Positions 25,422-50,572 of a stretch of 64,000 bases of DNA are shown here, one piece after another. A program made the position numbers and the translations under genes. The stretch covers positions 1 to 64,000 of the forward strand of contig NZ_MASN01000037.1 of NCBI RefSeq assembly GCF_001861355.1, written 5' to 3'. Source of the stretch: Natrialba sp. SSL1. GTDB lineage: Archaea; Halobacteriota; Halobacteria; Halobacteriales; Natrialbaceae. Under the pieces are notes generated by a model. It saw nothing but the letters and a program-made list of their open reading frames with translations, made no database searches and was not told where the DNA came from. Positions within the stretch are counted from its first letter, which is position 1, and each line of letters opens with the position of its first letter.

Positions 25422-26003
25422 TCCGAGCCGCCGGGCGACGACAGCGGATCCGGCAACTTTTCGATCGAGGCTGACAGCAGACACCTCGATGAGCCTGTCG
25501 TCGGTGTCCCTGATCGACCGTTGCTGACGGGGTCTGTGTCACCAGTGGCTGCTGGCCGTGTTAGCGCGAGGAACACCGAAGGCCCGTCCCGAACAGGTTC
25601 GGTGTTTGTTTCCCACAGGACACGGTAAGCATCCCCTATCGCGACAGTCGACCACAGTTTAGGGCACTTTTCTGTCCCTCCGGCTAGCAGAAGTGAGTGT
25701 TCGGAAAGATCCTGCAATCAGCGTACAGGCGTTGAGTGGGCACTCTGTAGAAGTCGCACTCGGCTCTCACCGGCTGACTGTTCGTTCAGCCGAGTTCAAA
25801 CAGGAGCGACGAGAACACGACGGCCGAGAGATCGAGAGCAGCCAATCTCGACACGTATGCCCATAATCGGCATCACAAGGTCTCATTAGAGACCGCCACA
25901 CGACATAGGCGGGAACTCGAGTCTCACACCAGCGGAGGGCAATTGGCCCGGAGTCCAGTCTCGCCAGTAGCATGCTTGTGTACCGAAGGAGACTCCGTGC
26001 GAC
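25422..26003. other. Intergenic stretch without a convincing gene
   Basis: No frame here has haloarchaeal coding character; the longest (minus strand 25767-25973) lacks plausible composition. Two inverted repeats are visible: AACACCGAA/TTCGGTGTT (25572-25606) and CTCGGCT/AGCCGAG (25759-25794) with an inner GGCTGA/TCAGCC. It may be degraded sequence. Confidence 0.5.
25572..25606 (+). terminator. Possible terminator downstream of the UPF0212 gene
   Basis: A 9-bp perfect stem (25572-25580 with 25598-25606, 17-nt loop) is followed by TGTTTCCC on the plus strand. It lies about 150 bases after the stop codon, so the link to that gene is uncertain. Confidence 0.35.
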
Positions 26004-26240
26004 TTAGTCTGCGGTAGCGGCGACGGCTTCCTGCTCGCCCTCGCGCATGTTCATCGTGATTCCGCCAGCGAGTGCAAAAACAGCGGCCTTGTGATCGGTT
26101 TTCGATTTGTGAATTGATGTCGGTCGAATACCAAGGGATTCGTATTCGTCGAGGTCAATCTGACAGTTGTCCCACTCTGCACACTGGTTCGATACCTCCG
26201 CAAGAAGGCCGTGAAGGTGAATGAGCTCCTGTTTCTTCAT
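26004..26240 (-). CDS. UPF0058 family protein
   Basis: The 78-aa protein matches the archaeal UPF0058 family almost throughout: MKKQELIHLHGLLAEV, YESLGIRPTSIHKSKTDH and KAAVFALAGGITMNM. Its molecular function is not known. The ATG at 26240 gives the family's usual MKKQEL start; another ATG lies two codons upstream. Length is normal, with a short Ala-rich tail. Confidence 0.93.
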   Translation of the reverse strand: MKKQELIHLHGLLAEVSNQCAEWDNCQIDLDEYESLGIRPTSIHKSKTDHKAAVFALAGGITMNMREGEQEAVAATAD

Positions 26241-26481
26241 AACCATGCACTCCTATCCACTGCAGGGTTATATTATTATCTTGAGTCGCGTTACCATGGG
26301 AACAGACGAAACGTGTGTGAAAATCCGGTAGAAAAACTGATCGAAAACGGCTGCTAGCCGGGTGAAACAGTTCACAAGGACGTATTGTCTCGGTCGTGTG
26401 AACGGCTGAATTCGTCTCGATTCGCGGTTGAACGGGCCTGAAGCGGCCCATACCGCGTTCAGGTGTTGCCTAAATTCGGTG

Positions 26482-26661
26482 TCAGCCTAGCTGCTTGAGA
26501 TTCTGGAGATCGCGGTCGGTTCGCATGAACTCGGCCGTGCGTCGGGAGGCATGACAGTTGGGACAGTGAAACATTTCCGTCGACGATGGAAGAGTTCCGG
26601 GAGAGCGCTGCCAATCTTTCGCACACTCAGGACACAACAGTTGCACGGTCGTCTCGTCCAT
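26482..26661 (-). CDS. 59-aa zinc-ribbon protein
   Basis: An ATG at 26661 opens a 59-codon frame, MDETTVQLLCPECAKDWQRS then MFHCPNCHASRRTAEF and a helical end DLQNLKQLG. Two CPxC knuckles 23 residues apart define a zinc ribbon of the kind common in haloarchaeal small proteins. It escapes a 60-aa length cut. Just upstream is the palindrome CACAC-CAT-GTGTG (26674-26686), which may control it. Zinc ribbons of this size often act in transcription or protein contacts; the specific role is unknown. Confidence 0.88.
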   Translation of the reverse strand: MDETTVQLLCPECAKDWQRSPGTLPSSTEMFHCPNCHASRRTAEFMRTDRDLQNLKQLG

Positions 26662-26970
26662 GGCACGCTATTACACACCATGTGTGAAAAAGGTTATCGC
26701 GGCTGTCTCACAGCGGTGCACTCGAGTCGGACGTGGAAAGACAGAACAGAATGTGAGAGGACAGAGCAAGATCGCTATAGAAGCGCGATCGGAGAGAACC
26801 TGCGACAGAACACGTTCTGCTCGTCGACATCAGGAGTCGGGAACGTAGTGTGGCCATCGCTCAGCGGGTGTGGACGGACAGTGAACAGAACGGGGCAGTT
26901 ACACGCGAGAAGTGAGATCGACAGAAAGCAACGCGCCGATAGCGCCAGTGTCACAGCAGATGTACGTTGT
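26662..26970. other. Intergenic region downstream of TFB
   Basis: Nothing coding is seen in these 309 bases. They hold the putative operator CACACCATGTGTG at 26674-26686 and an A/T-rich start (CGATAACCTTTTT on the minus strand) that could be the promoter of the zinc-ribbon gene. Confidence 0.5.
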
Positions 26971-27960
26971 TTAAGCTGGTGCAGCCGTGTCGGAGGCTTC
27001 GAGCAGTTCCTTGTAGCGGTTGCGGATCGTGACCTCGGAGATGCTCGCAACCTCGCTGACCTCGTTCTGGGTTACCTTCTCGTTGGTCAACAGCGCGGCC
27101 GCGTAGACCCCTGCTGCGGCGAGGCCGACCGGCGACTTGCCGCTGTGGACGCCCTCCTGTCGAGCCGACTCGAGCAGTTCGCGGGCCATCCGTTCGGTCT
27201 CGTCCGAGAGATCGAGGTCGCTGACGAACCGGGGAACGTAGTGTTCCGGATCGGCGGGCTTGACCTCGAGGCCGAGTTCACGGATGATGTAGCGGTACGT
27301 GCGGGTGAGCTCCATCTTGTCGACGCGGCTGACGGCCGAAATCTCGTCGAGGCTGCGCGGCGTGCCGGCCTGACGGGCCGACGCGTACAGCGACGACGTC
27401 GCGACGCCCTCGATGGATCGTCCTGGGAGCAGATCCTCCTCGAGTGCGCGGCGGTAGATGACCGACGCGGTTTCGCGGACGTTCTCGGGGAGACCGAGCG
27501 CGGAGGCCATCCGGTCGATTTCACCGAGGGCCTGCTTCAGGTTGCGCTCCTTGGAGTCGCGAGTGCGGAAGCGCTCGTTCCAGGTGCGAAGCCGCTGCAT
27601 CTTCTGGCGCTGGCGGCTGGAGAGGGACTTGCCGTAGGCGTCCTTGTCCTGCCAGCCGATGTTCGTCGAGAGCCCCTGGTCGTGCATCATGTTCGTCGTC
27701 GGGGCACCGACGCGGGACTTCTGGTCCTTCTCGGCGGCGTCGAATGCGCGCCACTCGGGGCCGCGGTCGATCTCGTCCTCTTCGACGACAAGGCCACAGT
27801 CCTGACAGACCGTCTCTGCGTGTTCGTCGTCCGAGATGAGCCGACCACCACACTCCGGGCACTGCTCGCGCTCCTCGGAGCGGGCCGTCTCCTCCTCCTC
27901 GGTTCGTGTTCGCTCCTCGGTACGCTCGTTCGAGTAGGTTCGAATGTTTGTATCAGTCAT
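26971..27960 (-). CDS. tfb: Transcription initiation factor TFB
   Basis: The 329-aa protein recruits RNA polymerase to TBP-bound promoters. After an acidic/Thr-rich N-terminus it has the zinc ribbon CPECGGRL...CQDCGLVV (residues 34-57), a B-finger region with GPEWRAFDAAE, the linker QDKDAYGKSLSSRQRQKMQR and two cyclin folds (about 115-210 and 215-310). The second ends with the recognition helix SISEVTIRNRYKELLE. Haloarchaea carry several tfb paralogues. The start at 27960 is followed upstream by an AT-rich promoter with several TATA-like elements. Confidence 0.97.
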   Translation of the reverse strand: MTDTNIRTYSNERTEERTRTEEEETARSEEREQCPECGGRLISDDEHAETVCQDCGLVVEEDEIDRGPEWRAFDAAEKDQKSRVGAPTTNMMHDQGLSTNIGWQDKDAYGKSLSSRQRQKMQRLRTWNERFRTRDSKERNLKQALGEIDRMASALGLPENVRETASVIYRRALEEDLLPGRSIEGVATSSLYASARQAGTPRSLDEISAVSRVDKMELTRTYRYIIRELGLEVKPADPEHYVPRFVSDLDLSDETERMARELLESARQEGVHSGKSPVGLAAAGVYAAALLTNEKVTQNEVSEVASISEVTIRNRYKELLEASDTAAPA

Positions 27961-33197: not shown

Positions 33198-34895
33198 ATG
33201 ACAGACACAGCCGACTACACCGGTTCCGATCTCTTCGTCGACGCCCTCGAGCAGTACGGCGTCGACTACCTCTTTGGCAACCCCGGCACGACCGAACTCC
33301 CGCTCATGGACGCCGTCAGTCAGAGCGAACTCGAGTACATCCTCGGATTGCACGAGGACGTCGCTGTGGGAATGGCCGGCGGCTACGCCCAGACGCGGCG
33401 ATACCATTCCCATCATGACGAGTCTATCCTGCCGGTTGGCGTGGTGAACCTGCATATCGCGCCCGGGCTGGCCCACGGGCTGGGGAACCTCTATGCCGCG
33501 AGCATCACCGGCGCGCCGCTGGTCGTGACGGCGGGCAACCACAGCACGGACTTCCGCCACGAGGAGCCGATTCTGTCGGGCGACCTGACCGAGATGGCCG
33601 ACCAGTTCTGCAAGTGGTCCGACGAGGTGCTTGACGTAGAAGCGCTGCCGACGATGCTCCGGCGGGCGTTCCGCGTCGCGATGACGCCGCCGACCGGCCC
33701 CGTCTTCCTCGGGCTGCCACTCGACGTGATGCTCGCCGAGACGGACGCCGAGCCGGAACGGCTGGGGCCGATTCCGAACGGCGGGAGCGGCGACCCGGCG
33801 CAACTCGAGCACGCCGCCGAGTTGCTGGCCGAGGCGGACGACCCGGTGCTGGTCGTCGGCGATCACGTTGCGCGCTCGGGGTCGGATGCGGTTGCGGCGG
33901 CGGTCGACCTCGCGGAGACGACCGGGGCGCGCGTCCACGGCGAAATTCTGGCCTGCGAGGTCGACTTCCCGACGGATCACGAGCAGTGGGTGTCCTACAT
34001 CCCGCCGAACGACAGTCTGGCGTCGATGCTGATGGATACGGACACGATCGCGTTCGTGGGCTGTTCGACGAACACGACGCTGACGCGCTACGAGGAGACG
34101 CTGGTCGATCCGGAGACGACGTGCATCCACGTCGGTGACGACGCCTGGCAGCTCGGGAAGAACCAGACAGCGGACGCGGCGGTTATCGGCGATCCCGGGC
34201 TGGCGCTGCAGGAACTCGACGAGCGCGTCTCGTCGAAGGTTTCTGATGAGACCGTTACGGAGCGACTCGAGACGGTCGCTGCAGTGAAGGAGATGGTCGA
34301 CGCCAAGATGGCTCAGATGGGCGACGGCGACGCGGAGGACGACCCGCGGGCGTCGAAGGCCGAACTGGTCGACGAGCTAGAGCGGGCGGCCGGCGACGCC
34401 TACATCGTCGACGAGGGGGTGACCTCGAAGTACGCCATGCTGACCCGCTGGGAGCTCGCGCCGGAGCAGTACATCTCGAACAAGGGCGGCGGCCTGGGCT
34501 ACGGGCTGCCTGCGGCCGTCGGAGCCGCTGTGGCGGAGGGCCAGCGCGATGAGCCGCGGGAGGTCGTGGGCTTCATCGGCGACGGCTCGTACCTCTACTA
34601 CCCGCACTCGATCTACAGCGCGGCGAGACACGACCTCGATCTGACGGTAGTGGTCTCGGACAACCGCAACTACCGGATTCTCAAGGACAACACGCTGGGG
34701 CTGCTCGGCGGCGAAGAGGGGGAGTACGACTTCGTCGGGATGGACTTCGAGCCGCCGGTGGATATCGTCCAGAACGCACAGAGCCACGGGGCGCGGGCAG
34801 AACTCGTGGAGACGCCCGACGAGATCGAGGACGCGGTGTCGGCGGCGATGGAGCGCGAGGGGCCGGACGTGCTAGACGTGCTGGTACACGACTGA
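33198..34895 (+). CDS. Thiamine-diphosphate-dependent enzyme (acetolactate synthase / decarboxylase type)
   Basis: The 565-aa protein has the three-domain ThDP decarboxylase layout. The N-terminal Pyr domain has YLFGNPGTTELPLMDAV and the catalytic Glu in LHEDVAVGMAGGYAQ (about residues 51-65). The central domain shows DDPVLVVGDHVARSGSDAV. The C-terminal domain has GGGLGYGLPAAVGAAVAEG and the diphosphate/Mg motif GDGSYLYY...DNRNY. The start is the ATG at 33198. The C-terminal sequence fits benzoylformate decarboxylase- or acetolactate synthase-like enzymes; the substrate is unclear. Confidence 0.9.
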   Translation: MTDTADYTGSDLFVDALEQYGVDYLFGNPGTTELPLMDAVSQSELEYILGLHEDVAVGMAGGYAQTRRYHSHHDESILPVGVVNLHIAPGLAHGLGNLYAASITGAPLVVTAGNHSTDFRHEEPILSGDLTEMADQFCKWSDEVLDVEALPTMLRRAFRVAMTPPTGPVFLGLPLDVMLAETDAEPERLGPIPNGGSGDPAQLEHAAELLAEADDPVLVVGDHVARSGSDAVAAAVDLAETTGARVHGEILACEVDFPTDHEQWVSYIPPNDSLASMLMDTDTIAFVGCSTNTTLTRYEETLVDPETTCIHVGDDAWQLGKNQTADAAVIGDPGLALQELDERVSSKVSDETVTERLETVAAVKEMVDAKMAQMGDGDAEDDPRASKAELVDELERAAGDAYIVDEGVTSKYAMLTRWELAPEQYISNKGGGLGYGLPAAVGAAVAEGQRDEPREVVGFIGDGSYLYYPHSIYSAARHDLDLTVVVSDNRNYRILKDNTLGLLGGEEGEYDFVGMDFEPPVDIVQNAQSHGARAELVETPDEIEDAVSAAMEREGPDVLDVLVHD

Positions 34896-34923
34896 GAGAT
34901 GACCGTTTAATATCCGTGCACAA

Positions 34924-34938
34924 GTTGAGAATCTCGAC
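34924..34938 (+). terminator. Terminator candidate after the ThDP gene
   Basis: GTTGAG pairs with CTCGAC around an AAT loop (one G-U pair) 29 bases after the stop, followed by CTCTTATAGG and a T-rich tract. Confidence 0.45.
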
Positions 34939-35080
34939 CTCTTATAGGCATCTATTTATCGATGACACTCTTATTTAATAGCTATTCAGATTAAAATATA
35001 TTATTCGATGCTGGTTTTAAATGAGCCTATTTGAAATCCAAGATAGATTGTGGACCGTTCCTATGTGCCGCATCAACAAC

Positions 35081-35088
35081 AATTAATA
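35081..35088 (+). promoter_or_regulatory. TATA-like box for leaderless RT transcript
   Basis: AATTAATA is centred 26-27 bases before the ATG at 35111, the distance from TATA to start site in archaea. With no Shine-Dalgarno near the ATG, the message is probably leaderless. Confidence 0.5.
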
Positions 35089-35110
35089 GAATTGGATCAC
35101 GACCGAACAT

Positions 35111-36748
35111 ATGAGATTATCTGAGAGTTTAAATCTCGAACTTGCCTGGGATAAGAGTAAAAGGAATATTGATGACAACCAGAAGGTGTTTGTCAACAAC
35201 CCACACATAACTGATATAATAGATAATGATGAAAATAAACAGGATTTTATACGGAGTTTATATTACTCTATTGAGGATGGGTACTTTCCGTCAGATGCAC
35301 GTGTCATAAATGTTCCAAAAAGGAATTGGAATATACGGCCTGGAAGGTACTTGGAAATTAAAGATGCCACTCTATATTCTGCAATTGTGATTGATATGTA
35401 CGATGACATAAGGAAGAGGATTAAGTGGTCTAGCAATGATTGTAGATATTCTCGAATATTATTAGATGACATTGATGGTACAAAATGGATGGAAAAACCT
35501 GTTCAGTCGTGGAAGAAGTATAATAAGAAAACACGAAAGTTAGCGGAAGAATATGATTATGTAGTTCTAACAGATGTAAATTCATATTTTGAAAATATTG
35601 ATCATAGATTATTAGATTCGAAAATACGAACAATCTATGATAACGACAATATTAGATCTCTATTAAGAAACTGTCTACGTCGATGGCATCGCCCCAAATC
35701 GCGTGGACTACCACAAGGATATTACCCCTCGAACGTACTTTCTGAGTTATATTTTGACAGTATTGACCGTGGGCTAAAATCTAAAGGAATACACCATGTT
35801 CGGTACAGTGATGATTTGATCCTGTTTTGTGAAGACAAAGAAGAAGCCATCAACTCACTAAGATATTTGATAAAGATCTATCGTGAAAGCGGTTTGTATT
35901 TGAATAGAAAGAAAACAAGGGTTCTCTCATCTGAAGAAGCATTAGAAGAATTCAAAAACCCAAAAGATGTGATCTCTGAGATAAATAAGAAGGTTGGTGA
36001 CCGAATTGAACGTGAGAAAGAACAAAAACGGAAGGAAATAAAAGAGAAGAAAAGGAAAACGGGGGGTGTTACCGTTGATGATGTGAAAACAGAGGTGAAA
36101 TTACCATATACGGATGGGGGTGTTGTTTCATATTCCAAACTAAGTGATGACGAAAAAGCCAAGGTTGTAGAGAAAGCTTTTGATAAGCACATACAGGATA
36201 AGGAGTCAGTAGATGGCACTCTCTTTAGATTCCTAATTAGGAGAATGGGTTATCTCAACAGTTACTATGCAGTCCCATACTGCATGAAAAGGATAGAAAA
36301 CGGAGGACCAGACATTAGGAGAATTCTTGATAAATATTTCTCCAACCTCGACAATAAGGAAAGCCTGGCTGGGAAAATGATGGAGATGATCCTGTCGGGA
36401 GATGTACCCTATGAGTATCATGAGTTTGCTATTGTTCGTTGGATCTTTCAAGCAGGTATCAGGAGCAAGGAAATAATAGGAGGTATGAGAGAATTGCTGA
36501 ATAGAGATTATGAAATCAGAGAGATAAAAAATTACATTATATCCTATTTGGGTGAACATGGAGAGGCAATTGACATAAAAGCCATATTTGATAGATATCC
36601 TAGGACAAGCAATGATGTTCGGAAGTCAATTATCTTAATGGGTATCCGGAATATGGAAAGTGGTATGAGGGCTACTATTTATAATCAGGCGAAAACCGAC
36701 CATCAATATTGTGAGTTTTCAATAGACCTTGCCAAAGAAAAAGCATAA
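35111..36748 (+). CDS. Abi/UG-type (defence) reverse transcriptase
   Basis: The 545-aa protein has an RT domain at about residues 60-275: VINVPKRNWNIRPGRY (RT1), the first catalytic Asp in VVLTDVNSYFENIDH (D155), GLPQGYYPSNVLSELYFDSI (RT4) and VRYSDDLILFC (Y-x-D-D, 232-235), then GLYLNRKKTRVL. GLPQG-xxxS-NVLSE and YSDD separate it from group II intron RTs (GxPQGG, YADD), retrons (no VTG thumb motif) and DGR enzymes. Residues 285-320 are a basic coil and 345-545 are alpha-helical, HEAT-like, as in Abi and UG defence RTs. It stands alone in the AT-rich island. A function in anti-viral defence is inferred from the family. Confidence 0.93.
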   Translation: MRLSESLNLELAWDKSKRNIDDNQKVFVNNPHITDIIDNDENKQDFIRSLYYSIEDGYFPSDARVINVPKRNWNIRPGRYLEIKDATLYSAIVIDMYDDIRKRIKWSSNDCRYSRILLDDIDGTKWMEKPVQSWKKYNKKTRKLAEEYDYVVLTDVNSYFENIDHRLLDSKIRTIYDNDNIRSLLRNCLRRWHRPKSRGLPQGYYPSNVLSELYFDSIDRGLKSKGIHHVRYSDDLILFCEDKEEAINSLRYLIKIYRESGLYLNRKKTRVLSSEEALEEFKNPKDVISEINKKVGDRIEREKEQKRKEIKEKKRKTGGVTVDDVKTEVKLPYTDGGVVSYSKLSDDEKAKVVEKAFDKHIQDKESVDGTLFRFLIRRMGYLNSYYAVPYCMKRIENGGPDIRRILDKYFSNLDNKESLAGKMMEMILSGDVPYEYHEFAIVRWIFQAGIRSKEIIGGMRELLNRDYEIREIKNYIISYLGEHGEAIDIKAIFDRYPRTSNDVRKSIILMGIRNMESGMRATIYNQAKTDHQYCEFSIDLAKEKA

Positions 36749-36805
36749 CCAATCCTTCTAAGAGATACACAGATGTGAATTCAGAGCGAGTAAAGCCAGG
36801 TCAAC

Positions 36806-36880
36806 CAGTTTCTTAAGCTCAATAGTTATTTATCTAACCTATAATAGAAAGAATCAACCTGATATCGAGTAAGTAAACTG
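36806..36880 (+). ncRNA. Long-range AT-rich stem downstream of the RT gene (candidate)
   Basis: CAGTTT-CTTA-AG-CTC (36806-36820) can pair with GAG-TAAG-T-AAACTG (36867-36880), leaving small bulges and enclosing about 46 bases. It lies 58 bases after the RT stop and within the same AT-rich segment. It may be part of an RNA that works with the RT, or only a 3' element of its mRNA. Confidence 0.35.
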
Positions 36881-36950
36881 AAACCGGTATACGTCCTCTT
36901 TCCCTCAAACTAGCGGTAGTTATAAGTCACTACAAGTCAACAATTAGAAC

Positions 36951-37026
36951 GGAAGCCACAACGTGGGTACGAAAGTGCCCCGGGTGCTGGCACACCCGAG
37001 ACGTGGCTTCCAAGCCGCTCCGGCTT
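36951..37026 (+). ncRNA. Compact structured RNA, three-way junction with GAAA tetraloop
   Basis: GGAAGCCAC (36951-36959) pairs with GTGGCTTCC (37003-37011). Within it lie GGGTAC-GAAA-GTGCCC (36965-36980) and CGGGTG-CTGGCA-CACCCG (36981-36998), stacked without a linker. Directly after the closing stem comes AAGCCG-CTC-CGGCTT (37012-37026). The G-U pair in the GAAA stem and the GNRA loop only make sense on the plus strand. A TATA element TTATAA (36920-36925) is 27 bases upstream of the first G, so transcription would begin at the stem. I do not recognise the RNA class. It may partner the RT or be the 5' leader of the gene at 37142. Confidence 0.8.
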
Positions 37027-37051
37027 GTAGCCATGATTCCATACAGCCGAC

Positions 37052-37069
37052 CGGGATATAAACGTCCCG
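37052..37069 (+). repeat. Small hairpin following the structured RNA
   Basis: CGGGA (37052-37056) pairs with TCCCG (37065-37069) around TATAAACG. The loop itself is TATA-like and about 85 bases before the GTG at 37142, so it might instead be a promoter for that gene. Confidence 0.35.
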
Positions 37070-37141
37070 CACGACATCCGACGCGAAGCACTCAACTACC
37101 CGCTGGACCGCGATTCTCACACTCACTCGGAGCTGATCACC

Positions 37142-37636
37142 GTGAGTGACGACGATTCAGTCGCCGAGCCTGAGACTGCTGGTGATCAGGACGCCGACGC
37201 TGTTTCCACCTCCGAGACAGCCACCACCAACGGCGACCCGGCTACCGGCGACGCCAACGACGATGGCGAAGCCAGCAACGGCGACACAGTCAACAACAGC
37301 GACGGGGCCGGCAACGCTGACGCCACAGCCGACACAGCTACCGACAACTCACCAGCCACCAGCAACCAACGTAACACCACTCGCGATTTCAGAGCCACCC
37401 TCGGCCTCGACCCCGACTACACCCCTGACCCAGACACCACCTCGCTGCCCAACTGCCCCCGCTGTGACCACCCCGTCACGCGAACCAGTATGACCAGCCC
37501 CACCGAAGCCATCGCCGGCCCCTGCGGCTGTCAGGTCTCTCCCGGCTTCGCTCGCCGAGCCCGAGCCCGGCGACGCAACACTCGAGAAGGCTCGCAGTCC
37601 GATTCTGGCTCTGACACCGATCACAGTTCGACCTGA
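37142..37636 (+). CDS. Low-complexity protein with C-terminal zinc ribbon
   Basis: The 164-aa frame starts with GTG at 37142. The first about 80 residues are Asp/Thr/Ala/Asn-rich and probably disordered. Residues 100-140 contain LPNCPRCDHPV and AGPCGCQVSPGF, a likely zinc ribbon, followed by an Arg-rich stretch RRARARRRNTRE. The composition is haloarchaeal, unlike the AT-rich RT. Similar Zn-ribbon proteins with acidic tails are common in haloarchaea with unknown role. An opposite-strand frame of similar length is rejected. Confidence 0.6.
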   Translation: MSDDDSVAEPETAGDQDADAVSTSETATTNGDPATGDANDDGEASNGDTVNNSDGAGNADATADTATDNSPATSNQRNTTRDFRATLGLDPDYTPDPDTTSLPNCPRCDHPVTRTSMTSPTEAIAGPCGCQVSPGFARRARARRRNTREGSQSDSGSDTDHSST

Positions 37637-39451: not shown

Positions 39452-40831
39452 TCAGCGGCCGCCGTACTCCGCGTGAAACTGCGCCACGAGCGTCTTCGTC
39501 GCTCGCTTCTTCTCACCGTCGGGAACGAACACGAACGGAATCGGCGTGTCGAACGCCCGCTCCCCGTACAGTCCCCAGTCACCGACCGAACGGGTTGTCC
39601 CGCCGTAGGCGATCGGAATATCCCGCAGCTCGCCCGGCTCGTACTCCGGCACGTACGAGCGCTCGATCCACACCTCGTGGGTCGGCACGTCCAGCTCCGA
39701 CGCGAGCAGGTCCTCGAGCCGGTCCGCGTTGCCGACGAGCCACTGGCCGAACGCCTCCCGGTCTGCATCCACGCGGTCCGCGTAGGCGATCCGGTGCTTC
39801 CAGCAGGTTTTGTGAAACCGCCGCGTTCGGAAGCGGTCGTACAGCGCCGCGAGCGTCGACTCCGGCTGCTCGCGAGCCGTCTTTCGGAGGCGCTCCATCA
39901 GCGTGTTGTCGTCGATTTCATCGCCGATCACCTGGTCGATCGTCACCGGCCGCACCGCGGTGAGCGAATCCAGTTCCTCCAGCATCGCCCGGAGCAACAC
40001 GTTCGCGTACACCGACTTGTGGTGCTGGGTGACCCACATGTACAGCGCGATCCGCCCCTCGAGATAGTTCCCGATGGTGCTCAGGGCCTTCTCCGAGAGC
40101 GCGAGCCCCTCCTCCGGGTGGGCGGTGTAGGCGTCGACCATTCGACTCGTATCGAAGCTCAACACGTCTGCGCCGGTCATCCGGTTGTCCCGCGTGATGT
40201 AGTCCAGCCGGTCGACGTCGATCGGCGAGTGCAGCAGTTGCGCCCCGAGGCCGTACTGCCAGGGGCCGCCGCGTTCGAAGACGAGACTGTAGCCGAGCAC
40301 GTAGCCACAGACCTCGTACGGATCCACGCCGAGCGCCTGCAGCGCCTCGCCGAACTCCTGGATGATGATGAGACAGCCGAGCAGTTCGTGCGAACTCGCC
40401 GTTCGAATCGCTCCATCGTCGAGCCCCGCCTCTGCAAACGCACCGACGAGTCCCGCGTCCTCGAGCCGGCCGTACAGCTCCTCCCGATCGAGGAACTGCT
40501 CCGCCAGATGGGAAAACGGCGGGTGTCCGACGTCGTGGAGCAGGCAGGCGCACTCGAGTGTCCGCTGGATTTCGTCCAGACTGTCGCCGTCGGTATTTCG
40601 GGTGAAGTACGACTGTCCGCGGAGTTTTTCGAAGACGGTGCGTCCGAGGTGGTAGACGCCGAGGCTGTGCTCGAAGCGGGTGTGGTTCGCGCCGGGGTAG
40701 ACGAGGTGGGTTGCCGAGAGCTGGCGGACGTAGCGCAGGCGCTGGAAGGCGCGGGTGTCGACGATGCGGTCGACCAGCGGTTGGTCGAGTTCGATGTAGC
40801 CGTGGACTGGGTCTTTGATCTGTGTGGACAT
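39452..40831 (-). CDS. HD-domain phosphohydrolase (dGTPase/SAMHD1-like)
   Basis: The 459-aa protein begins MSTQIKDPVHGYIELDQPLV, the signature of the YwfO/SAMHD1-like branch. The HD metal site comprises His in HTRFEHSLGVYHL (about residue 53), HD in CLLHDVGHPPFSHL (about 96-108) and the Asp in SPIDVDRLDYITRDN (about 202). Enzymes of this group hydrolyse dNTPs to nucleosides and triphosphate and in some cases restrict viruses. Length is normal. It is encoded alone, opposite to the ADH. Confidence 0.92.
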   Translation of the reverse strand: MSTQIKDPVHGYIELDQPLVDRIVDTRAFQRLRYVRQLSATHLVYPGANHTRFEHSLGVYHLGRTVFEKLRGQSYFTRNTDGDSLDEIQRTLECACLLHDVGHPPFSHLAEQFLDREELYGRLEDAGLVGAFAEAGLDDGAIRTASSHELLGCLIIIQEFGEALQALGVDPYEVCGYVLGYSLVFERGGPWQYGLGAQLLHSPIDVDRLDYITRDNRMTGADVLSFDTSRMVDAYTAHPEEGLALSEKALSTIGNYLEGRIALYMWVTQHHKSVYANVLLRAMLEELDSLTAVRPVTIDQVIGDEIDDNTLMERLRKTAREQPESTLAALYDRFRTRRFHKTCWKHRIAYADRVDADREAFGQWLVGNADRLEDLLASELDVPTHEVWIERSYVPEYEPGELRDIPIAYGGTTRSVGDWGLYGERAFDTPIPFVFVPDGEKKRATKTLVAQFHAEYGGR

Positions 40832-47971: not shown

Positions 47972-48670
47972 ATGACAGCGGCGTCAGTACGAACGGAATC
48001 GACGAGTACCACCTCACGGCGTTCGCTACTCGCCGCAGGTGCCACCGCCTCGCTCGCACTGACCGCCGGCTGTCTCGACTTCGCGCTCGGCAACGGCCCA
48101 CTCGAGTTCAGCGCCGACAGAGTCGCCCCCCACGACGACGCACTCGAGGAGACCGGCTACGCTGAGGAGTCCGTGGAGGAGCAGGCACTCGAGGAGTCCG
48201 TCGACGTCGGTGCGGGAATCGAGCGCGAGATCAAGGCCGGCTTCTGGCAGTCGTCGTACGTGAAAGATGTCGACCTCGCTCCCGTCGGTGAGGAAGAAGC
48301 CGCGCTGTTCACGGCGCTTTCGATGCCGGCGGTCGAGATTCTGGGGCGGTCGTTCAACCCGCTCGAGGATCTCGGAAACCACGACCTTGTCGAGCGCCTC
48401 CTCGAGGAGGTCGACAGCGAGGCGGGCCAGATCGAGGACATCGAGCACCGGGAGTCGTTCGGGCTGGAGATTCTCGGCGACGGCCGCGACGTGGATACGT
48501 TCGTCGGGCAGTCCACGTTCGACGGCGAGGAGATCGAGATCGAACTGACACTGACCTCGTTCGTCAACGAGGACGACCTGCTCGTCCTCCTGGGAACGCA
48601 CCCCGAAATGCTGGCCGAGGAGTCGGCGAATATCGAGGAGCTACTCGAGTCAGTCGAGCACCCGGTCTGA
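47972..48670 (+). CDS. Tat lipoprotein, DUF6517-like
   Basis: The 232-aa protein has a twin-arginine lipoprotein signal: TSRRSLLAAGATASLALTAG followed by the lipobox Cys (residues about 14-34). The mature part is acidic, with VEEQALEESVDVGAGIEREI and FTALSMPAVEILGRSFNPL, typical of a haloarchaeal lipoprotein family of unknown function. I chose the ATG at 47972, which gives a normal signal length; several in-frame Met codons upstream (47867, 47891, 47894) would make an unusually long N-terminus. Confidence 0.8.
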   Translation: MTAASVRTESTSTTSRRSLLAAGATASLALTAGCLDFALGNGPLEFSADRVAPHDDALEETGYAEESVEEQALEESVDVGAGIEREIKAGFWQSSYVKDVDLAPVGEEEAALFTALSMPAVEILGRSFNPLEDLGNHDLVERLLEEVDSEAGQIEDIEHRESFGLEILGDGRDVDTFVGQSTFDGEEIEIELTLTSFVNEDDLLVLLGTHPEMLAEESANIEELLESVEHPV

Positions 48671-48769
48671 GTTGTTTGTGGGTGGGTAGGAGTGTCGGAA
48701 CGCACATGACTAAGATGAGACCGATGTGAGCAGTCAGCATCGTCTCAATTGATTCGGCGCCACACGTCG

Positions 48770-49504
48770 TTACTTCTCGAGTTTTGATGCTCGGATACAC
48801 AGGAATGTTGGGTATGTTAGTCGTTTTTCGTAGGACTCGGGGTTCTTCTCTTTGAACGTCGCTCTCGGCTTCGGTTCGACCAGTTCGTCCAGTTGGAACC
48901 CCGTTTCGATGAGTGGGTTGATAACCTCAGCAAAAGGCCGGCGATAGAAGGGAACATCGACGTCTGCTCCGGAAGCCGACCACGTCATCCGCTCTTGTTC
49001 GATTTCGAAGTAGTTCTCAGCCTCGAACGCGATGTACTCATCAACAGGATGTTGCGCCGAAAAAACGAGAAAGCCACCCGGCCGGAGGATACGAGCGAAC
49101 TCCGTGAAGGCCTCTCGCCAGTCTTCGACGTAATGAAGCGAAAGGCCGCAAATGACACCGTCGAACGCACCGTCATCGGCGAACTCGAGGGGGTCCGTGA
49201 TATCAGCCTGGCGAATTTCTGCTCGGTCGCCGATTCGTTCTCTCGCCTGTTCGAGCATGTTACTGTTCTCATCAACGGCAAGGACCTCCGCTCCCCTCTC
49301 GATCAACCACGCTGCGTATCGACCGTGTCCACAACCCGCATCGAGCACTCGTTTGCCCTCGACGTTCGGGATGAGTTCCGTCATCGCAGGAAATTCTAGG
49401 TCCGCGCAGTACGGGTCCTCCTCTTGCGTCTTGTAGGTTTGTGCTAATTTATCGTATGCGTCCTCTACGGTAGGATTCTCATCAGGCGCCATGAACGCAG
49501 TCAT
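48770..49504 (-). CDS. Class I SAM-dependent methyltransferase
   Basis: The 244-aa protein has the Rossmann motif I RVLDAGCGHGRYAAWL (about residues 52-67), motif II AEVLAVDENSNMLEQA and the later DGAFDGVICGLSLHYVEDW and ILRPGGFLVFSAQHP. The C-terminus resembles small-molecule methyltransferases of the type 11 family. The substrate is not evident. A second ATG four codons in is possible. Confidence 0.9.
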   Translation of the reverse strand: MTAFMAPDENPTVEDAYDKLAQTYKTQEEDPYCADLEFPAMTELIPNVEGKRVLDAGCGHGRYAAWLIERGAEVLAVDENSNMLEQARERIGDRAEIRQADITDPLEFADDGAFDGVICGLSLHYVEDWREAFTEFARILRPGGFLVFSAQHPVDEYIAFEAENYFEIEQERMTWSASGADVDVPFYRRPFAEVINPLIETGFQLDELVEPKPRATFKEKNPESYEKRLTYPTFLCIRASKLEK

Positions 49505-49699
49505 GCGTCCCCCTCCGGATTAGTTGTTTCTTTTCCGACTTTTGGTCATACTCATTTGTAACTCATACTGGAATCGTCTCACCAACGGCTGATTACGATA
49601 ATAACGCAAACTGTGATGAAACAAGACAAGTGAGTGGCGTGAATAATACACGGCAACCGCCGTGAGGCGGATGGCGGATGCCTGTGACCGCAGTCGCAG

Positions 49700-50572
49700 T
49701 TAGTAGAACTCGCGAACGAGGTCCATCGCGTCCTCAGGAGCGCCGTCCGGAATCTCGGACATGTCCTCGGTGACGCCGTGCTGTTCGTGGTACGGCACCG
49801 AGTTTTCGTCCTGGTACATGACTCCCTGATACTCCTTGTCGCCGTCGAGGATGACTTCCTTGGCGTCCTCGTAGTCGTGGCGGTCGTGGTCTTCGTCTTC
49901 CTGCAGGTCGACCAGCGAGTCGCGGAAGTAGTCGTAGGTGTCGACGTCGTTGAACGTGACGCACGGACTGAAGACGTTGACGAAGCCGAAGCCGTCGTGC
50001 TCGATGGCCTCCTGGATGATCTCCTGGTGGCGCAGCGCGTCCGAGGCAAAGGACTGCGCGATGAAGGTCGCACCCGAGGCGAGTGCGAGCGCGAGCGGGT
50101 TGACCGGCGGCTGCTGTGGTCCCTCCGGCGTCGTCGAGGTCTCGAAGTCAGAGCGCGAGGTCGGGGAGGCCTGGCCCTTCGTCAGGCCGTAGATGCGGTT
50201 GTCCATGACGACGTAGGACATGTCGACGTTCCGGCGAACGGCGTGGACGAAGTGACCGGCACCGATCGAGTAGCCGTCACCGTCACCGCCGGCGGCCATC
50301 ACTTCGATGTCCGGGCGCGCCATCTTGACGCCGGTCGCGACCGGCAGTGCGCGGCCGTGGACCCCGTGCAGCGCGTAGCTGTGCATGTAGGTCCCGATCT
50401 TGCCGGAACAGCCGATCCCGGCGACCACGAACGTGTTGTCGGGGTCGTTGCCGGTCTCGGCGAGGGCTTTCATCATGCCGTTCATCGTCCCGAAGTCACC
50501 GCATCCGGGACACCAGGTTGGCTGCTTATCGGACTTGAAGTCAGTGAATCGAACGTCGGATTGAGAGCTCAT
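49700..50572 (-). CDS. korB: 2-oxoacid:ferredoxin oxidoreductase, beta subunit
   Basis: The 290-aa subunit binds ThDP: PTWCPGCGDFGTMNGMMKAL, VAGIGCSGKIGTYMHSYALH, VMAAGGDGDGYSIGAGHFVH and VMDNRIYGLTKGQASPTS. With the alpha subunit it oxidises 2-oxoacids (pyruvate or 2-oxoglutarate) to acyl-CoA and reduces ferredoxin. The ATG at 50572 overlaps the stop of korA by one base (TAATG). No 4Fe-4S delta motif is present, as in other haloarchaeal two-subunit enzymes. Confidence 0.95.
   Translation of the reverse strand: MSSQSDVRFTDFKSDKQPTWCPGCGDFGTMNGMMKALAETGNDPDNTFVVAGIGCSGKIGTYMHSYALHGVHGRALPVATGVKMARPDIEVMAAGGDGDGYSIGAGHFVHAVRRNVDMSYVVMDNRIYGLTKGQASPTSRSDFETSTTPEGPQQPPVNPLALALASGATFIAQSFASDALRHQEIIQEAIEHDGFGFVNVFSPCVTFNDVDTYDYFRDSLVDLQEDEDHDRHDYEDAKEVILDGDKEYQGVMYQDENSVPYHEQHGVTEDMSEIPDGAPEDAMDLVREFY

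Follow-up and report, generated by a model that had tools for sequence, protein, structure and literature searches.

The closest described relatives of the locus reported here are the UG/Abi reverse transcriptases (RTs), the mechanisms of which have been treated in earlier work (PMC13275509; PMC13174585). A HEAT-like solenoid fused to the RT domain is the mark of the class 1 enzymes (PMC12489045; PMC13174585). AbiK has its helical domain in the position of a template strand, uses this domain for both trimer and hexamer contacts, and primes its DNA on a tyrosine (PMC9508834). DRT4 is a single-gene, template-independent system producing random single-stranded DNA, and DRT6 is related to it; the mechanism of DRT8 has not been established (PMC13213688). 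Several UG groups use non-coding RNAs (PMC13174585; PMC13213688), such as the 188-nt RNA of DRT9 (PMC12489045). The RNA of DRT10 is 137 nt long. UG21, the group considered below, is a UG/Abi RT class used also by the classifier myRT (PMC8934634), the one RT paper found to name it in the literature searched, where no experiment on UG21 was found. The DRT mechanisms in the cited literature come from bacteria, and RT-based systems are absent from the main text of a 2026 survey of archaeal immunity (PMC12988326).

Identification of a UG21 reverse transcriptase

A stretch of 64,000 nucleotides from the haloarchaeon Natrialba sp. SSL1 (contig NZ_MASN01000037.1), referred to as the window, was analyzed. 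The uninterrupted open reading frame at 35111–36748 (+) encodes a protein of 545 amino acids. It carries the RT motifs named by the first-pass annotation, RGLPQGYYPSNVLSE and YSDD (S233-D234-D235), and also motif A, TDVNSYFENID, with D155. The alignment of seven UG21 proteins showed that D155, D234, D235, and the PQG motif are invariant in all of them and that the polymerase active site of the window RT is intact. The PADLOC profile RT_UG21 matched residues 4–544 with 580.9 bits, followed by Drt8 (190.4 bits) and UG20 (177 bits), and the other UG21 homologues scored 480–582 bits with the same profile. In Pfam, RVT_1 (77.6 bits) was the only domain matched, and this was also the single RVT_1 match in the whole genome. 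By its sequence, the window RT is a full-length member of UG21, a UG/Abi group already defined. The archaeal gene is thus a new member of a group known from classification, with nothing outside the known kinds. The earlier description of the protein as an orphan does not hold, since UG21 fits it over the full length.

The phylogeny of the RT domain, which the first-pass annotation had proposed as a check, was built from 20 proteins only, including the seven of UG21. The UG21 proteins formed one clade (support 94/95), and the mobile intron, retron-like, and RT-Cas1 (CRISPR) proteins formed a separate group (96/99), outside of which the window RT was placed. Together with the UG21 profile, this tree upholds the proposed Abi/UG affiliation. 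The haloarchaeal members fall into two subclades, one with the active sites YSDD/YGDD and the other with YNDD. The profiles ranking next for the UG21 proteins were UG20, DRT8, UG19, UG22, UG23, and UG32, and one UG20 protein scored 288 bits with the UG21 profile.

The exclusion of group II intron and retron enzymes also stood. The scores stayed below the cut-offs of the maturase model TIGR04416 (89.4 bits, cut-off 300) and of the retron model NF038233 (41.9 bits, cut-off 235), and Rfam contained no match to an intron or to a retron msr/msd RNA. More generally, the NCBIfam models for group II intron, retron, Drt2-5, and AbiA proteins matched the RT core far under their cut-offs. No long direct repeat of the kind formed by a DGR template/variable pair was present within 2.9 kb, and a DGR enzyme seems unlikely. 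The nitrilase or phosphohydrolase domains fused to class 3 enzymes (DRT1, DRT5) were not found in the window RT by Pfam.

Domain plan and predicted fold

The AlphaFold2 model of the window RT had a pLDDT of 79.9 and a pTM of 0.77, obtained with an input alignment of only seven sequences. It divides the protein into an RT fingers/palm domain (residues 1–285; 35111–35965, +), which holds the invariant residues named above, a variable linker with no invariant residue (286–345; 35966–36145, +), and a HEAT-like helical solenoid (346–545; 36146–36745, +). Linker residues 318–339 are disordered in the model (pLDDT below 50), and the solenoid has a pLDDT of ~82–95 over most of its length. The C-terminal half had been expected to be helical, and the structure prediction suggested for it indeed shows a solenoid of about 12 helices. 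The same half of the UG21 profile also picks up, weakly, HEAT-type repeat proteins of haloarchaea. The class 1 combination of an RT with HEAT-like repeats is therefore found in the window RT by the predicted solenoid, the profile matches, and the Foldseek comparisons described below. Four tyrosines of the solenoid, Y390, Y475, Y496, and Y524, are invariant in the seven UG21 proteins and may be regarded as candidate priming residues.

The Foldseek matches covering the whole length were mainly UG/Abi enzymes. The best was DRT6 (9wy8, TM 0.53/0.58), followed by AbiK (7r07, 0.51/0.48), Abi-P2 (7r08, 0.45/0.50), DRT4 (9vdo, 0.43/0.47), and the ncRNA-templated DRT9 (0.40/0.43). The RT-domain structures of group II introns aligned over just ~280 residues. 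The matches of the predicted fold to class 1 enzymes are moderate.

A single-gene island and its limits

The RT gene lies in an AT-rich island at 34896–36911 (no strand assigned), between the gene of a thiamine-pyrophosphate enzyme ending at 34895 and a multicopy leader element. The GC content of the window is 0.66–0.68 before ~34900, falls to 0.2–0.5 across 34900–36950, and then returns to 0.56–0.68; lesser dips (~0.54–0.56) also occur at 25501–27000 and 48501–50000. The island has a GC content of 36%. The GC3 of the RT gene is 0.35 compared with 0.72–0.88 in the neighbouring genes, and the pI of its product is 8.9 compared with 4.2–5.1 for three neighbouring proteins. The foreign composition noted in the first-pass annotation is thus real, but the island ends at ~36911 and not at 37140. 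A low GC content (0.33–0.43) is common to all six UG21 genes from haloarchaea, even those encoding acidic proteins (pI 4.6–5.2). AT-richness is thus a trait of the family here and by itself no sign of recent arrival.

The limits of the island were set by composition and by two congeneric genomes, G071 and G226, which have the same genes on both sides (the upstream gene is 95% identical) and no RT. The site is occupied there by unrelated sequence of 231 bp and 719 bp, respectively. Since near relatives keep the same flanks without the RT, the transferred unit is one gene, from 34896 to ~36911. This also confirms that the RT lacks a protein partner in its surroundings. The HD-domain gene at 39452–40831 was considered as a partner and rejected because its region is conserved in both RT-less genomes.

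The island of G173, a genome of another family, is 1,863 bp long, with 141 nt on the 5' side and 102 nt on the 3' side of the UG21 gene. Sister genomes have other genes at this site, identified from reading the sequence only: in G275 a small pair interpreted as toxin-antitoxin genes, and in G398 a gene of the sensor-kinase type. One-gene islands in two genera, together with the other cargo at such sites, indicate that UG21 moves singly into sites accepting small cargo. Across species, the variable insertion sites held UG21, an HTH/membrane-protein-like gene, a UPF0175/PIN-like pair, or a sensor-kinase-type gene (window 34896–36911; L055 1906–2137; L056 1888–2607; L017 9531–11393; L068; L069).

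The downstream leader and the search for a cis RNA

The island is followed by a leader with a covarying hairpin (36912–37141, +) and by a gene for a small acidic protein with a zinc-ribbon-like CPRC...GPCGC motif (37142–37636, +). Homologues of 36908–37080 were found at seven places in this genome (the others at C52:284044, C35:443771, C35:260279, C37:76486, C17:129774, and C41:20624 of G000), and all six congeneric genomes compared contained many of them. The aligned copies have in common a TATA-like start, the hairpin GGAAGCCAC/GTGGCTTCC, and inner helices, with double-sided changes in three pairs. The copies examined stand 5' of small CPRC...GPCGC protein genes, which are paralogues of the one in the window. 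The leader had no match in Rfam and the zinc-ribbon-like protein of the window had none in Pfam. The leader and gene family (36908–37636 in the window) comprises a structured leader of ~170 nt with TATA-like elements, and its copies in congeneric genomes number more than seven.

G071 and G226 also keep the leader, next to the site that lacks the RT in these genomes. Being multicopy and present at RT-less sites, it is not the template of the RT, and the downstream hairpin was rejected in this role. The structured RNA that the first-pass annotation had noticed here exists; it is the leader of another gene family, that of the zinc-ribbon protein, and not an RT partner.

We also looked for an RNA linked to UG21 itself. 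The non-coding parts of the island, upstream (34896–35110, +) and downstream (36749–36911, +) of the gene, folded no better than shuffled sequences on either strand and are not conserved at other UG21 loci. The RT genes of the window, G173, and Halomontanus are 62–67% identical in DNA, and the similarity breaks off at the ends of these genes or close to them. Only 1 of 30 flank comparisons scored above all shuffles, compared with all of the gene segments of equal length. The sequence behind this exception lies 3' of the RT genes of G197 and Halomontanus. It belongs to a dispersed element of ~190 bp (L018 11123–11312; L016 11704–11891; L079–L082) and was rejected as an RT-linked RNA because the element is present as well in G347 and G189, two genomes without UG21. 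In UG21-less genomes it stands 5' of small genes of a predicted DNA-binding type. Thus, the class 2 hallmark, a conserved cis ncRNA, was not found in the UG21 flanks compared, and the suggestion of an RNA-templated mode using downstream elements was not substantiated. The non-coding room in G173 is also smaller than the DRT9 RNA, or than a promoter plus the DRT10 RNA.

Distribution and genomic contexts

Of the 392 genomes sampled from the order, 5 contained UG21, which is therefore rare in haloarchaea. Two of 125 genomes of the window's family and two of 170 genomes of another family contained it. Nine further matches in the 392-genome scan were HEAT-type proteins or another RT, and weak C-terminal profile matches in eight haloarchaea were rejected as UG21 because they were HEAT-type repeat proteins. 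UG21 also occurs on a plasmid of Halomontanus rarus, the one further member obtained from the plasmid and phage searches, and in the bacterium Corallococcus carmarthensis. The scan of genome contigs with a single sequence gave no UG21, and the alignment-based scan returned the Corallococcus UG21 and a UG20 of Methanomicrobia. The scans of viral contigs contained no UG21, and the sole RTs found were DRT8-like (490 bits, L029 7632–9326, IMGVR_UViG_3300050166_000169) and DRT3a-like (387 bits, L030 3090–4472). UG20 RTs were seen in a Methanomicrobia MAG (L024 3363–4943), on a Manganitrophus plasmid near toxin-antitoxin genes (L070 3938–5554), and on a Rhizobium plasmid adjoining DarT/macro-domain genes (L071 3416–4468).

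In the tree, the window RT pairs with that of Halomontanus and then with that of G173, from another family, while the RT of G197, although from the window's own family, clusters with those of two other families. This grouping across families points to horizontal spread; as far as the tree of these proteins goes, UG21 follows elements and not hosts. In G254, a convergent tyrosine integrase gene lies ~90 bp from the UG21 gene, with no tRNA found adjoining it, and in G197 an integrase gene lies ~7 kb away.

The RT has no named defence gene as a neighbour in the window. BREX genes adjoin the 58%-identical Halomontanus homologue on its plasmid, and an antiviral function is plausible on this basis; at none of the other six UG21 loci was a named defence system found as a neighbour. 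Directly 3' of the Halomontanus UG21 lies a gene for a hypothetical protein of 783 amino acids (L016 12365–14716), with no PADLOC match and only one Pfam match, below threshold, which is absent beside the window RT.

Proposed mechanism and alternative explanations

By domain plan and predicted fold, UG21 is best modelled as class 1-like. From this plan, the lack of class 3 domains and of a cis RNA, and the precedents of AbiK, DRT4, and DRT6, we infer a template-independent, protein-primed defence polymerase. Our main reading, to which we give a probability of about 0.55, is that the window RT is a stand-alone antiviral DNA polymerase of this type, moving between haloarchaea as one-gene cargo. 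On the model of AbiK and DRT4, the solenoid would hold the growing strand in the place of the template and would drive the formation of an oligomer. Synthesis would be primed on a tyrosine of the protein and would yield single-stranded DNA without a template. On infection, this DNA would build up and stop the multiplication of the virus, probably with the loss of the infected cell. Each of these steps, from catalysis and priming to trigger and protection, is put forward here by analogy. The stand-alone model agrees with the toxin-antitoxin-like pair at the G173 site of a sister genome and with the BREX genes beside the Halomontanus homologue. Counting against it are the moderate strength of the class 1 fold matches, the whole-length match to DRT9, the seven-sequence basis of the structural model, the single locus of seven beside a defence system, and DRT8 being the closest tested group.

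The DRT9 match, the use of ncRNAs by several UG groups, and the structured RNA just 3' of the gene would also suit an RNA-templated, class 2-like enzyme resembling DRT2, DRT9, and DRT10 that copies a small RNA encoded in the island, within the RT gene itself, or at another place in the genome. We consider this unlikely in view of the unconserved flanks, the folding of the island no better than shuffles, the little room in G173, the multicopy nature of the downstream RNA, and the dispersed nature of the single common flank. The ranking of the UG20, DRT8, UG19, UG22, UG23, and UG32 profiles next to UG21, and the UG20 protein scoring high with its profile, raise a still less likely option, i.e., a third mode of defence that UG21 would share with DRT8, UG20, UG22, and UG23, to which it is closest by profile. 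The window RT lacks the nitrilase or phosphohydrolase fusion, and since these four groups are without a known mechanism, they offer no argument against the class 1 model.

The explanation that seems the least probable of all is a role outside defence, in housekeeping or in mobility, for an RT that is either domesticated or selfish. Such a role would fit a lone gene among housekeeping genes, in a window where no named defence gene adjoins it, and the integrase adjoining the G254 homologue. It is opposed by the lack of an intron, maturase, or retron RNA, by a sporadic occurrence and a tree not following the hosts, unlike those of a housekeeping gene, by the BREX neighbour, and by the nearest profile relatives all being UG/DRT groups. 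Returning to the stand-alone polymerase, its boldest form is one that we offer tentatively and hold to be rather doubtful: a minimal one-gene archaeal antiviral DNA synthesiser working at high salt, with a product or trigger new to the numbered DRTs, and exchanged among haloarchaea via sites that also take toxin-antitoxin genes.

The archaeal UG21 gene is self-contained, the limits of its island are defined, and relatives show the empty site, so that it allows a clean one-gene test of template-free DNA synthesis as an archaeal defence. The same gene would bear on the role of the UG20/21/22/DRT8 cluster.

Comparison with known systems

The window RT agrees with UG21 proper in its full-length match, its domain order, and its clade with six other UG21 proteins, and differs from it in nothing by kind. 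By profile, no other numbered DRT and no other group tested by experiment comes as close to UG21 as DRT8, but it forms a separate profile group. DRT9, DRT2, and DRT10 are UG RTs as UG21 is, but they require a cis ncRNA. DRT6 shares the single-gene architecture and gives the best fold match, although it belongs to a different UG group and the UG21 profile gives it 45 bits, across residues 65–277. The class 1 Abi polymerases AbiK, Abi-P2, and AbiA resemble UG21 in having an RT domain followed by a helical solenoid, with no maturase domain, and in matching it over the whole length by fold, whereas the identity is low (12–15%) and the priming tyrosines of UG21 are candidates.
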